IMG/VR virus record: IMGVR_UViG_3300045994_000173
Span: 1-22,509 of that record
Source of the DNA: a virus
Reading direction: 5' to 3' (one strand)
Length of the DNA: 22,509 bases
Part shown: positions 8,321 through 20,770 of the stretch, one piece after another
How positions within the stretch are numbered: position 1 is the stretch's first letter
How the letters are laid out: every line of letters starts with the position of its first letter
Translations under genes and position numbers: made by a program
The notes under the pieces: generated by a model
Told to the model about the DNA's origin: nothing
Database searches by the model: none
The model's input: only the letters and a program-made list of their open reading frames with translations

Positions 8321-8503
8321 ATGTATGACAACAAAGAAATAGAAGGAAAACTATATCATACAAATTATGATGGTAGTTTAATTTTAGATGAAAATAATGA
8401 GCCCATTGAGGCTCATATTTGTCTGTGCGCTGCACATGATTCAAGTGAATGTTGTTGCGGTGCATGGGATCTTATTTTACTAGGAGAAAGAGAATGGAAT
8501 TAA
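8321..8503 (+). CDS. Cysteine-rich 60-residue hypothetical protein
   Basis: GAGGG at 8311-8315 precedes ATG 8321. The second half holds an unusual cysteine cluster, CLCAAHDSSECCCGAWD (about residues 34-50), with five Cys and one His, followed by LILLGEREWN. The first half (NYDGSLILDENNEP) looks like a beta hairpin. The cluster could bind zinc or an iron-sulfur centre, but the spacing is not a standard zinc ribbon. The gene overlaps the methyltransferase start by ten bases, so it may be translated with the modification cassette. A 7-bp hairpin lies within it at 8397-8416. Confidence 0.65.
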   Translation: MYDNKEIEGKLYHTNYDGSLILDENNEPIEAHICLCAAHDSSECCCGAWDLILLGEREWN

Positions 8504-9618
8504 AGTTTCCATATACATTAGAAGATGTGTATAAAAGTGCTGGTAGAAAACGCTTTACTGTTATATCTACTTTTAGTGGAGGTGGGGGTTCTTCTATAGG
8601 TTATAAGTTGGTTGGGGGTGATGTATTGTTAGCTAACGAGTTTGTTAAAACCGCTTACGAGACATATTGTTTAAATTTTCCTGAAACCCCTGTTATAATT
8701 TCTGATATTAAACTTTTAAATGGTAAAGATTTTTTAGACAAAATAGGTATAAATGTAGGTGATATTGATATTTTAGATGGGTCTCCTCCTTGTTCTGCAT
8801 ATTCTATGGCAGGTAAAAGAGAAAAGAATTGGGGTAAATCTAAAAAATATTCTGATGATAAAATTGTAGAAAACATAGAAGATCTGTTTTTTGAATTTAT
8901 TAGAATAGCTGGGGAGATTCAACCAAAAATAATAATTACCGAAAATGTAGAGGGTTTGCAAATGGGTGAGTCTATTAAAAAGTTAAATCAAATTATAAAT
9001 AAGTTTTCTTCTATTGGATATATAGCAAACTATAAGACTGTAAATGCTAAGAACTTTGGGGTTGCACAGAATAGACCAAGAACTATTATTATTGCTATTA
9101 GGAATGATATATTTGATAAATCAGGCAATTTCTTTCCAACCGACTTCTTTCCAGAATATTTAAATAAACCGTATAGAGTATTGAGTGATGTTCTTTCTAC
9201 ATTAGAGCAGACCGAATTGGAAATTCAGCAAGCAAGAGATATATGTAAACAAGAATCTGTTATTAATAAGGTTATACAGTCATTTCCATATGAAAATAGA
9301 ACAAATTCTTTATTTGATATTAATTATGCTGATGCAACTTTAACTAAAAATCATACAGCCTTTTTCTCTATGAGAAAAACTTCATGGAATTTAATCTCTC
9401 CATGTTTAACTGCGACTGTTACATTATCTGGTGCAATTCATCCTCTTGAGAATAGAAAGTTTTCATTAAAAGAATCGTATAGAATTATGGGATTACCAGA
9501 TGATTATAAAAATACTGGAACATATATACAACAATTGGAAAGAGTTGGGCGAATGCATTCACCTTTTTCTGTAGCTTATATAGCCGATCATATTGTTAGG
9601 AGATATTTAAATGTCTGA
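8494..9618 (+). CDS. C5-cytosine DNA methyltransferase homologue with Arg in motif X (candidate DNA carboxymethyltransferase)
   Basis: This 374-residue protein has the complete C5-cytosine methyltransferase core. Motif I is STFSGGGGSSIG (25-36), motif IV GSPPC carries catalytic Cys100, motif VI is ENV (150-152) and motif VIII is QNRPR (192-196). The variable target-recognition region lies around 200-315, motif IX is RKFSLKESYRIMG (321-333) and motif X is VGRMHSPFSVAYIADHI. Start ATG 8494 has AGGAGA just upstream; an in-frame ATG at 8449 lies inside the preceding gene. A gapless comparison from motif IX places Gly352-Arg353 on the Gly-Asn304 of M.HhaI, so the near-invariant Asn is Arg. At the equivalent position in M.MpeI, Lys or Arg was reported to allow use of carboxy-SAM. 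With a CmoA homologue two genes downstream, the likely donor is carboxy-SAM rather than SAM. No restriction enzyme is adjacent. It overlaps the next gene by eight bases. Confidence 0.93.
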   Translation: MELKFPYTLEDVYKSAGRKRFTVISTFSGGGGSSIGYKLVGGDVLLANEFVKTAYETYCLNFPETPVIISDIKLLNGKDFLDKIGINVGDIDILDGSPPCSAYSMAGKREKNWGKSKKYSDDKIVENIEDLFFEFIRIAGEIQPKIIITENVEGLQMGESIKKLNQIINKFSSIGYIANYKTVNAKNFGVAQNRPRTIIIAIRNDIFDKSGNFFPTDFFPEYLNKPYRVLSDVLSTLEQTELEIQQARDICKQESVINKVIQSFPYENRTNSLFDINYADATLTKNHTAFFSMRKTSWNLISPCLTATVTLSGAIHPLENRKFSLKESYRIMGLPDDYKNTGTYIQQLERVGRMHSPFSVAYIADHIVRRYLNV

Positions 9619-10453
9619 TTTATCGGAATTACCAAATAAATTAAGAGTAACCTTGATTGATGAAATTAAATCATATCAAGATACTGATGTGGCGGTTTTA
9701 CTATCATCTGGTGTTGATAGCCATACTATATTGTTTGCGGCATTAGCAGCGGGAAAAAATGTTCATTGTTATAGTTTTGTAATGGAGAATATTGAAAGTA
9801 GGGACTGTCGTATTGCTAAAAATACAGCTGACCTATATAAATTACCATTTACTAAAATTACATTACCTACTAGTTTAGATATATTAGTATCAGATTTAAA
9901 CTTTATAATAAATGAAATAGGTTGTTCTAAAAAGACTGATATAGAGTGTTTTTGGCCTATGATGTATTCTATGAATCAAATAAAAGAGCATACTATATTG
10001 ACTGGTCATGGAGCAGATCATTATTATGGTATAGGTAGAAAAGCTAACCAGCATTATCATGGAAGATTAGATGAATATAGAGAACTTTCATTTAATAATG
10101 ATGGGTGGAGTCAGAAAAAGTTTATTCACAAATATGGAAAACTTTGTAATAAATGGTTTGCATATCCATATCATACAAAAAAGATATTTGATTTATTTAA
10201 GGGAACGACTTATAATGATTTAAATAAACCTTTTCAAAAGAATATATCAAGAGAAGCGTTTAAATCAGAACTTTCAATTTGTAAAATTTTTAATAATTCT
10301 CCATTACAGTTAGGTGATAGTGGAATTGCATTACACTTTGAAAAATTATTAACAACTAATGAAAATAAAAATGCATCAAAGAGCGTTGTTGGAATTTACA
10401 ACAATATTAAACGAGAATATAATAAGGTTAAATTAAATGAATTCTTTAATTAA
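9611..10453 (+). CDS. AsnB-type PP-loop ATP-dependent amide ligase lacking the glutaminase domain
   Basis: This 280-residue protein matches the synthetase half of asparagine synthetase B. The PP-loop is LLSSGVDSHT (30-39), binding ATP pyrophosphate. The second signature TGHGADHYYG (131-140) aligns with the SGEGADE-FGG of AsnB and beta-lactam synthetase, which separates it from QueC, TilS and GuaA. The N-terminal Ntn glutaminase domain (Cys2 nucleophile) is absent, since the PP-loop starts at residue 30. Ammonia or another amine must therefore come from elsewhere. The family adenylates a carboxylate (Asp side chain, -CH2-COOH) and amidates it. Between a DNA methyltransferase and a CmoA homologue, the inferred substrate is a carboxymethyl group on DNA. 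Start ATG 9611 overlaps the methyltransferase stop. Confidence 0.85.
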   Translation: MSDLSELPNKLRVTLIDEIKSYQDTDVAVLLSSGVDSHTILFAALAAGKNVHCYSFVMENIESRDCRIAKNTADLYKLPFTKITLPTSLDILVSDLNFIINEIGCSKKTDIECFWPMMYSMNQIKEHTILTGHGADHYYGIGRKANQHYHGRLDEYRELSFNNDGWSQKKFIHKYGKLCNKWFAYPYHTKKIFDLFKGTTYNDLNKPFQKNISREAFKSELSICKIFNNSPLQLGDSGIALHFEKLLTTNENKNASKSVVGIYNNIKREYNKVKLNEFFN

Positions 10454-10464
10454 AGAGTGTGAAT

Positions 10465-11145
10465 ATGGAAAATAAATTTATATTCTCTGAATCTACTTCA
10501 GGTTTTGATTTACATATAACAAATAGTATACCAGGATATAATACATTAATTGAATTAACTTCAATGCTGAGTTCTCATTGGATAAATGAGGATAATAAAC
10601 CTGTTATTGATATTGGCGGTTCTACTGGAAAGCTTTTAAATTTAGTACAACAAACATGTGACATTAATATTCATAATAAGCTTTTCAATGTAGATCCAAC
10701 TACATTTAATGATAAAGTTAACAATAATTTAATAACCTTTATCGAAGATGAAGCCCAATATTATCTTAATTCTGTAAAAGATGTACAAGTATTCTTTTCA
10801 ATTTTTACTCTTCAATTTTTATCTGGTCAGAAACGTAAACAAGTTTTGCAGTTAATGTATGACAAGTTAGATTCTAATGGGGTTGTTTTTATTGCTGAAA
10901 AGTTTTTTATTGAATCTTCTGAGTTTCAAGAACTATTCTCGGTTGTTCTTAGAAATCTAAAGCTTAAACATTTTGAACCGTTAGAGATTTTAGAAAAAGA
11001 CTTTCTACTTTTAAAACATTTGAAACTTAAAACGGAAACCGAGTTTTTATATGAGTTATCTAGTGTAGGATTTAAAGTTAAAAAATACTGGCAATCTTTA
11101 CACTTCAATGGTTATATATGTGAGAAAAATGAAAAAAATAATTAA
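10465..11145 (+). CDS. CmoA-like methyltransferase-fold protein (putative carboxy-SAM synthase)
   Basis: This 226-residue protein aligns with E. coli CmoA, which turns SAM plus prephenate into carboxy-SAM. Matches are SIPGYNTLI (21-29) to SVPGYSNII, DIGGSTG (49-55) to DLGCSLG, FTLQFL (114-119) identical, AEKFF (144-148) to SEKFS, and SSVGF near the end to HKAGF. These are CmoA signatures rather than generic SAM-enzyme motifs. One key residue differs: gapless alignment puts Asp179 where E. coli CmoA has Arg199, which salt-bridges the carboxylate, although Lys178 is adjacent. The donor it makes may therefore bind differently or be a variant. No CmoB (tRNA carboxymethyltransferase) is present, so the DNA methyltransferase is the obvious user. 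ATG 10465 is preferred to GTG 10459; AAAGAG is a weak ribosome site. Confidence 0.85.
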   Translation: MENKFIFSESTSGFDLHITNSIPGYNTLIELTSMLSSHWINEDNKPVIDIGGSTGKLLNLVQQTCDINIHNKLFNVDPTTFNDKVNNNLITFIEDEAQYYLNSVKDVQVFFSIFTLQFLSGQKRKQVLQLMYDKLDSNGVVFIAEKFFIESSEFQELFSVVLRNLKLKHFEPLEILEKDFLLLKHLKLKTETEFLYELSSVGFKVKKYWQSLHFNGYICEKNEKNN

Positions 11146-16235: not shown

Positions 16236-16589
16236 ATGTCAGTCACTATTAAGTTTTATACTGTAACAGAGCGAGTACCTAAACACGGAGAGGATATTAT
16301 TTATCTTAGACCTACTACATCGTTTGATTCTGAAGGGTTCGACCCTAATGAATGTTCGGTTGAATATGTTTGGATTGGTTTTGATCCTGAATATGGTGAA
16401 CCTACTGGTAATGATATTTGTTATGGTGTGGCTGTAGACGGTGTTAAAAATGTTGGTGATTGTATCATCTCCGATGAAGGAGATGTGTATCAATTAAAAT
16501 TACAATTTGATGGATATAGCCCGTCAAATGATTGGTTATGGTCTCCAATAGAGGAATATTGGGCTTCATTTGAGAATAAAGGAGAATAA
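16236..16589 (+). CDS. Hypothetical acidic protein
   Basis: This 117-residue protein is unrecognised. AAAGGTG lies about 11 bases before ATG 16236. It is acidic and aromatic, with VEYVWIGFDPEYGEP and SNDWLWSPIEEYW segments, beta-rich in appearance, with no membrane helix. It resembles small Trp-rich phage proteins often found upstream of metabolic genes. The YqeY gene begins one base after its stop, so they are in one unit. Confidence 0.75.
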   Translation: MSVTIKFYTVTERVPKHGEDIIYLRPTTSFDSEGFDPNECSVEYVWIGFDPEYGEPTGNDICYGVAVDGVKNVGDCIISDEGDVYQLKLQFDGYSPSNDWLWSPIEEYWASFENKGE

Positions 16590-16590
16590 A

Positions 16591-17043
16591 ATGTCATTAA
16601 TTGCTAAAATTAAAGCTACACAATTACAAGCACGAAAGAATAAAGATCAGGTTAAAGCTACATTGCTTACCACTTTAATTGGTGAAGCTGAAATGATTGG
16701 AAAGTCTGCGGGTAATCGTGAATCAACGGATGATGAAGTATTGAGTGTTATTCGTAAGTTTGAAAAGAATATGAAAGAAAACATTCGTATCTATTCTACG
16801 GCGGAAACATTAATGAAAAAATTGCTTGAAGTAGAAGCTGAACTTGAAATCTTAAAAGAATTTATTCCACAGAAACTTACTGACCTTCAAGTAGAAAAGG
16901 ACGTTTCAACGCTACTTGTAGCACTTGGATTACCAAAAGTTCAAAAGTCTATGGGTGTTATTGTTGCTGAATTGAAATTGCGGTACCTTTCTCAATTTGA
17001 TGGTAAACAAGTATCTGACATTTTTAAACGAGTTATTCAATGA
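16591..17043 (+). CDS. YqeY/GatB C-terminal-domain family protein
   Basis: The 150-residue sequence follows the bacterial YqeY pattern closely: MSLIAKIKATQLQARKNKDQ, then KATLLTTLIGEAE, DEVLSVIRKFEKNMKENI, a helical EAELEILKEFIPQKL and a C-terminal DGKQVSDIFKRVI. YqeY is the stand-alone form of the tRNA-contacting tail domain of GatB, the tRNA-dependent amidotransferase; its own function is poorly defined. AAAGGAGA supports ATG 16591. It overlaps the polynucleotide kinase gene by four bases (ATGA), so a role in recognising tRNA for repair is plausible but unproven. Confidence 0.88.
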   Translation: MSLIAKIKATQLQARKNKDQVKATLLTTLIGEAEMIGKSAGNRESTDDEVLSVIRKFEKNMKENIRIYSTAETLMKKLLEVEAELEILKEFIPQKLTDLQVEKDVSTLLVALGLPKVQKSMGVIVAELKLRYLSQFDGKQVSDIFKRVIQ

Positions 17044-20239: not shown

Positions 20240-20770
20240 ATGAAATGGATTATTGATAAAGAATTTACATTTGAAGCAGGTCATCGAGTGTGGGCACAAA
20301 AACTTGAACATGAAAATTTGAGTTTAACTACAGATTGTGCGTGTAAACATTTACATGGACATTCTTATACTGTTAAGGTTCATGTTGGAAGTGATAATTT
20401 AAACGAATCTGGTATGGTTACTGATTTTAAGAATCTAAACTTCTTTAAGAAGTTCTTGGATGATGTTCTTGACCATAAATTCATCATTGACGTTAATGAC
20501 CCACTGTTCGGTTATATTACGGGTGTTGCATTAGATTCTTATGGTAAGATTGATAATTTTACGAATCTTGGCACACTATTAAGTAAGTCTAACCCTTCGT
20601 GGTCTAATGATCTTATTGATTCTTTTGTATTGGTTAATTTCATCCCAACTTCTGAAAATATTTGTAAACATTTAAAATTTTATGCATCTTCTCAATTAGT
20701 AGGGGTTGCTACGGTAACTTCCGTTGAGCTTTGGGAAACTAAAAAATCTCATTGTGTATATTATGGGTGA
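20240..20770 (+). CDS. queD: QueD / 6-pyruvoyl-tetrahydropterin synthase family enzyme
   Basis: This 176-residue zinc enzyme would convert 7,8-dihydroneopterin triphosphate to 6-carboxy-tetrahydropterin (QueD) or 6-pyruvoyl-tetrahydropterin. Zinc ligands are His15 in FEAGHR plus His39 and His41 in the HLHGHSY segment. Cys35 is the catalytic Cys at the usual spacing. MVTDFKNL (59-66), LDHKF (77-81) and the C-terminal SVELWET glutamate are conserved. It is longer than bacterial QueD (about 120) owing to an insert around residues 88-130, as in several phage forms. In phages it can feed 7-deazaguanine synthesis for DNA, but QueC, QueE and DpdA partners are not in this window. Confidence 0.9.
   Translation: MKWIIDKEFTFEAGHRVWAQKLEHENLSLTTDCACKHLHGHSYTVKVHVGSDNLNESGMVTDFKNLNFFKKFLDDVLDHKFIIDVNDPLFGYITGVALDSYGKIDNFTNLGTLLSKSNPSWSNDLIDSFVLVNFIPTSENICKHLKFYASSQLVGVATVTSVELWETKKSHCVYYG

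Follow-up and report, generated by a model that had tools for sequence, protein, structure and literature searches.

The record IMGVR_UViG_3300045994_000173 of IMG/VR, analysed here over its whole length of 22,509 bases (the window), is a phage fragment, incomplete as a virus at 22.5 kb, that carries T4-like genes for DNA polymerase, UvsX, gp41 helicase, polynucleotide kinase and RNA ligase. Within it lie three neighbouring, intact genes on the plus strand, encoding in order a C5-cytosine DNA methyltransferase homologue of the CmoX type (X), an AsnB-type ligase of the CmoY type without a glutaminase domain (Y), and a homologue of CmoA, the carboxy-S-adenosyl methionine (carboxy-SAM) synthase (A). 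The methyltransferase and ligase genes overlap by 8 bases, and a gap of 5 bases separates the ligase gene from that of the CmoA homologue. An earlier note, made from the letters of this DNA alone, had recognized the three families side by side, and family matches bear this out.

Enzymes of these families form a pathway that has been characterized in Synechococcus phage S-B43 (Yang et al., Nat Commun, 7 December 2025; PMC12783734). In that phage CmoA yields carboxy-SAM, CmoX yields 5-carboxymethylcytosine at GC motifs, and the ligase SpCmoY adds glycine, the phage DNA holding 5-glycylcarboxymethyl-deoxycytidine; 5,615 CmoX candidates were counted in phages by the same authors (PMC12783734). Because the S-B43 pathway is already described, the window cassette is not a new kind of system, and the remark in the earlier note that its author knew of no described natural pathway with these parts has been overtaken by that publication. 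The features on which the argument draws are the following.

8494..9618, plus strand: putative CmoX-type DNA cytosine C5-carboxymethyltransferase, 374 amino acids (PF00145, E 6e-53; dcm TIGR00675, E 2.7e-44; 8yf3 match; start context)
8791..8793, plus strand: codon of Cys100, catalytic nucleophile in S-P-P-C, equivalent to SpCmoX Cys98 and M.HhaI Cys81 (alignments)
9550..9552, plus strand: codon of Arg353, putative contact to the carboxylate of carboxy-SAM, equivalent to SpCmoX Arg350 and M.HhaI Asn304 (alignments; bacterial control)
9611..10453, plus strand: candidate CmoY-type ATP-dependent amide ligase, 280 amino acids, AsnB synthetase domain without glutaminase (PF00733, E 6.9e-9; phrog_26038, 3e-66; fold model)
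9704..9721, plus strand: ligase PP-loop SSGVDS, the ATP pyrophosphate-binding loop, from residue 32 (alignment)
10376..10393, plus strand: SKSVVG, ligase residues 256-261, replacing the R-x-R-x-x-D of the SpCmoY branch (alignment: S256, S258, G261)
10459..11145, plus strand: CmoA-type carboxy-SAM synthase homologue, fast-evolving, starting at GTG 10459 or ATG 10465 (TIGR00740; phrog_4752, 5e-33; PDB matches)
10999..11016, plus strand: CmoA residues 181-186 (D181, L185, K186), where E. coli CmoA has Arg199 and SpCmoA its compensating Arg (alignment)

Methyltransferase residues and gene co-occurrence

The top solved relative of the window methyltransferase is SpCmoX (PDB 8YF3; E 5.9e-87, residues 18-387), followed among PDB matches by M.HhaI at E 3.5e-18. 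Its frame is open from 8449, and the ATG at 8494, which is preceded by a Shine-Dalgarno-like TAGGAG and agrees with the start of SpCmoX, is probably the true start. Yang et al. define CmoX by the Cys of SPPC and by Arg350, the contact to the carboxylate of carboxy-SAM, and SpCmoX, with this Arg, refuses S-adenosyl methionine (SAM) as donor (PMC12783734). The window enzyme has both residues. At the column of M.HhaI Asn304, Arg is found in 138 of 140 methyltransferases with CmoA nearby, the window included, a count that is not fully independent because part of the sample was picked by similarity to CmoX (the loci fetched with the ligase or with CmoA were not so chosen). In 30 ordinary bacterial C5-methyltransferases used as a control, this column holds Asn 27 times and Asp 3 times, and never Arg; two more rows of the control alignment, outside the 30, are enzymes in which a ligase is fused to CmoX. 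For the M.HhaI reference in these residue alignments, the decisive columns are the same as in the PDB alignment. Arg353 strongly supports a predicted carboxymethyltransferase activity for the window enzyme. In the engineered M.MpeI N374K, cited by Yang et al. (PMC12783734), a basic residue in place of Asn likewise switches the donor to carboxy-SAM, whereas the window enzyme has a natural Arg rather than an engineered Lys and its product would then undergo amide ligation.

The genes of these families co-occur widely. The ligase fetched 80 loci, of which 77 contain a CmoX-type methyltransferase and 66 contain CmoA within about 5 kb; a CmoX-type gene is likewise present in 73 of the 77 loci fetched with CmoA. 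All three genes lie within a few kb in 45 of 59 ligase clusters (90% identity), so that the co-occurrence in other phages proposed as a check in the earlier note is indeed present, and the X-Y-A order of the window is found in many IMG/VR contigs. (Scans of viral contigs with a single CmoA or ligase sequence gave no matches; scans with alignments found the homologues.) In two alphaproteobacterial contigs of metagenome-assembled genomes, one of them SAR116, ligase and CmoX form one polypeptide of 713 or 649 amino acids, with CmoA upstream (L200:3990-6128 and L201:4113-6059). Such fusions are good evidence that the two enzymes act on the same substrate, and the part of the CmoX paper available to us makes no mention of them (PMC12783734).

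Variations on the methyltransferase component are seen in other loci. In Staphylococcus phage vB-SscS-F1 (L034, 5293-7820), where a CmoY-type ligase is also present, and in PhiSepi-HH3 (L042, 5935-7664), CmoA lies beside a HhaI-like C5-methyltransferase with Gly, and no Arg, at the HhaI N304 position. If these enzymes carboxymethylate DNA, carboxy-SAM would be held another way and a filter on Arg350 would miss them. Several other loci (L002, L003, L004, L079-L082, L105, L109, L178 and L183) hold a tandem pair of CmoX-type genes, with one CmoA and one ligase alongside where the contig is long enough; the diagnostic Arg is present in those copies that were checked, and the two genes perhaps serve two target motifs.

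Relatives of the ligase and of the CmoA homologue

The AlphaFold2 model of the ligase (pLDDT, the predicted confidence, of 96) is closest in fold to asparagine, beta-lactam and carbapenam synthetases (Z 20-23 for their synthetase domain), with which it has PP-loop chemistry in common. Unlike those synthetases, it has no N-terminal glutaminase-like domain, and its substrate carboxylate is presumably on DNA. The glutamine-hydrolysing domain found in ligases of cluster A0A7T0Q3R0 is absent from the window protein, which is 280 residues long with its PP-loop at residue 32. A tree of 58 ligases places that of the window with those of Pseudomonas phage PaBG, Yersinia phage fHe-Yen9-02, Erwinia phage phB78 and relatives (10 rows, 95/91), inside a branch of 28 rows (100/99) that includes these cultured phages and many uncultured ones. 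Core residues K108, E112, D136, N205 and K210 are common to this branch and to that of SpCmoY. The R-x-R-x-x-D of the SpCmoY branch (R251 in 27 of 27, R253 in 27 of 27, D256 in 24 of 27), a motif taken as a criterion in this analysis and of unproven role in SpCmoY, is replaced in the clade of the window ligase by non-charged residues similar to its Ser, Ser and Gly. We infer, without proof, that this loss reflects a different amine pocket.

Not all relatives of the ligase have CmoX beside them. In Salmonella phage Sen-NF and in Erwinia and Dickeya jumbo phages (L035, L036, L038, L039, L040) the ligase has no adjacent CmoX, and CmoA is nearby in all but Sen-NF. The neighbours of these ligases include genes annotated as "oxygenase" (Sen-NF, Y3), a DUF1611 protein (AD1) and large unnamed genes (SNUABM_3, SNUABM_7); such extra neighbours may have a part in making or modifying the amine. 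In the related phages Yoloswag, SNUABM_5 and Yersinia fHe-Yen9-02, a two-piece match to C5-methyltransferases occurs about 13-18 kb away.

The CmoA homologue of the cassette is divergent. It matches TIGR00740 over residues 5-220 with E 1.4e-16 and 60.9 bits, short of the 193.3 that the curated cut-off of this model requires, and its clear PDB relatives are only the CmoA proteins of E. coli and Haemophilus (1im8, 8e-13; 4iwn, 2e-10). In the CmoA tree it falls on the side of SpCmoA, and its SAM site retains Y27, D51, G53, S55 and D79. A model folded without an alignment reached a pLDDT of 40 and was not used. In E. coli CmoA, Arg199 provides the salt bridge that holds the carboxy group (PMC3663124). 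The SpCmoA branch has Glu at this column in 29 of 29 members and an Arg one helical turn on, at the E203 column, also in 29 of 29; the latter was adopted here as a test for CmoA. A missing Arg199 was considered as an argument against CmoA function and dropped, as the active SpCmoA also has Glu in its place. The window protein is likely active, with less certainty than attaches to the other two enzymes.

Two phages carry closely comparable systems. In S-B43 all three enzyme families are likewise clustered: its CmoX agrees with that of the window in the catalytic Cys and in the Arg for carboxy-SAM, its ligase also has no glutaminase domain, and its CmoA falls in the branch of the window protein. 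Identities to the window are 44% for CmoX, 31-32% for CmoA and 31-34% for CmoY; the gene order of S-B43 is A-Y-X against X-Y-A in the window. Further differences are the window ligase, which belongs to the other branch, without R-x-R-x-x-D, and the divergent CmoA of the window, in which the Arg of SpCmoA is missing. PaBG (CmoX/CmoY genes AGS82053, AGS82056) also has CmoX, CmoA and ligase together and supplies the closest named ligase, 45% identical to that of the window, but its CmoX is only 34% identical and its CmoA, unlike that of the window, keeps Arg199; a ParB-like gene adjoins its CmoX, whereas none is seen nearby in the window. The CmoX tree places the window towards S-B43 and PaBG in another part, several long branches leaving the exact position unsure. 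From these comparisons the window cassette reads as a mosaic, with a ligase of the PaBG kind and CmoX and CmoA of the S-B43 kind, which suggests that CmoX and CmoY have been exchanged separately between phages.

Proposed pathway and its alternatives

The three genes very probably (roughly 0.86) constitute a CmoA-CmoX-CmoY DNA hypermodification cassette of a T4-like phage, predicted to carboxymethylate cytosine and then to link an amine. Onto the observed gene content, order, fold, diagnostic Arg, co-occurrence and fusion, the reactions can be carried over from the experiments with S-B43 (PMC12783734). The CmoA homologue would carboxylate SAM to carboxy-SAM, with prephenate as in characterized CmoA. 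The CmoX-type enzyme would follow the usual C5-methyltransferase mechanism, Cys100 attacking C6, while Arg353 would select carboxy-SAM, so that cytosine C5 within a short DNA motif receives -CH2-COOH. The ligase of the CmoY type would then adenylate the carboxylate with ATP and join an amine, and the bulky amide so formed would probably protect the phage DNA against nucleases of the host. The earlier note had drawn the same route from CmoA through C5 carboxymethylation to amide ligation, and its outline proves right, as demonstrated for the S-B43 homologues (PMC12783734) and in agreement with Arg353. Of the products it named, -CH2-CO-NH2 or another amide, the first, the primary amide, is not favoured, as the assayed glutaminase-free ligase uses glycine. 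The observed over expected frequencies of the GC and CG dinucleotides in the window, 1.05 and 0.81, are uninformative on the CmoX target motif.

Several points weigh against this interpretation. The chemistry of the window enzymes is not readable from sequence, and no close relative of the phage was found: in a megablast search with the whole window the sole match was 56 bases of gp41, and scanning with the RNA ligase gave none either. The assayed SpCmoY sits in the other half of the ligase tree (30 rows, 100/99), the window ligase lying outside its clade. The window CmoA is on a very long branch (2.62), keeps 45 of the 75 positions conserved in its own branch and has neither Arg, with Asp181 at the Arg199 column, Leu185 at the E203 column and Lys186 beside it. 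These last features underlie an unlikely alternative, in which the phage CmoA has degenerated or changed and the host CmoA supplies CmoX with carboxy-SAM. Host carboxy-SAM could substitute, since E. coli CmoA alone feeds SpCmoX in vivo (PMC12783734); the phage gene has nonetheless an intact frame within the operon and a retained SAM site, and Lys186, adjoining the lost Arg, could replace it. That the methyltransferase is instead an ordinary SAM-dependent 5-methylcytosine enzyme, the other two genes serving, for example, tRNA modification, is very improbable: its fold and motifs are those of C5-methyltransferases at large, but it has Arg353 where Asn is near-invariant, SpCmoX with the same Arg rejects SAM (PMC12783734), and the conserved co-occurrence and the fusions tie the ligase to CmoX. 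The bacterial CmoA/CmoB system for tRNA wobble modification has CmoA homology and the carboxy-SAM donor in common with the window, but the partner here is a DNA C5-methyltransferase homologue; the earlier note had reported no CmoB, and none was seen among the open reading frames scanned, an absence that carries little weight because the record is incomplete.

If the CmoA-CmoX-CmoY pathway operates, a further question is which amine the ligase joins. An AsnB synthetase domain without glutaminase can in principle use ammonia, and the AsnB-type fold of the window ligase is compatible with 5-carbamoylmethylcytosine, a primary amide, as product. This outcome is nevertheless improbable, as Yang et al. 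assign ammonia to the ligases with a glutaminase domain, cluster A0A7T0Q3R0, while the window ligase lacks that domain and the assayed glutaminase-free ligase uses glycine (PMC12783734). Addition of glycine, giving 5-glycylcarboxymethylcytosine, is a real possibility that falls somewhat short of an even chance. It has in its favour that SpCmoY, the sole assayed member of the family, is likewise glutaminase-free (PMC12783734), that the window ligase is 34% identical to it over 84% of its length and that both branches have the five core residues in common. Against it stand the well-supported separation of the two branches and the Ser/Ser of the window at the positions of R251 and R253, although the tie of these arginines to glycine is a guess. 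Because the ligase is of the PaBG branch and without R-x-R-x-x-D, glycine cannot be assumed as the amine, and Yang et al. raise the possibility of other amines for some clusters of ligases (PMC12783734). A proposal of much the same probability as glycine is that the branch of the window ligase, including PaBG, fHe-Yen9-02, phB78 and many uncultured phages, links to 5-carboxymethylcytosine an amine that is not glycine, in which case loss of R-x-R-x-x-D would mark the change of substrate.

Other genes of the window and wider significance

Other parts of the window hold features apart from the cassette. The family-B DNA polymerase gene at 1-2985 is split into 1-1134 and 2050-2985, each of which matches phrog_262, with the break at ...IIYCDTD / SDYVN... 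and intein-like ends, an N-part after CDTD and a C-part ending VHN|S. Between the pieces lies a free-standing endonuclease-like open reading frame (1109-2089, phrog_22677, weak HNH match), and the arrangement looks like a split-intein "fractured gene." A QueD-like 6-pyruvoyl-tetrahydropterin synthase is encoded at 20240-20770 (PF01242, 1e-27), no other 7-deazaguanine genes being seen in the window, and a GatB/YqeY-like "tRNA amidotransferase" family protein at 16570-17043 (phrog_1460, 7e-30).

The window adds a further clear case of a DNA hypermodification that was described only very recently, and its phage is no more than a distant relative of S-B43. It also points to a large branch of ligases distinct from that of the assayed SpCmoY. 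If the ligases of this branch do join an amine other than glycine, their product would be a DNA base not yet described.

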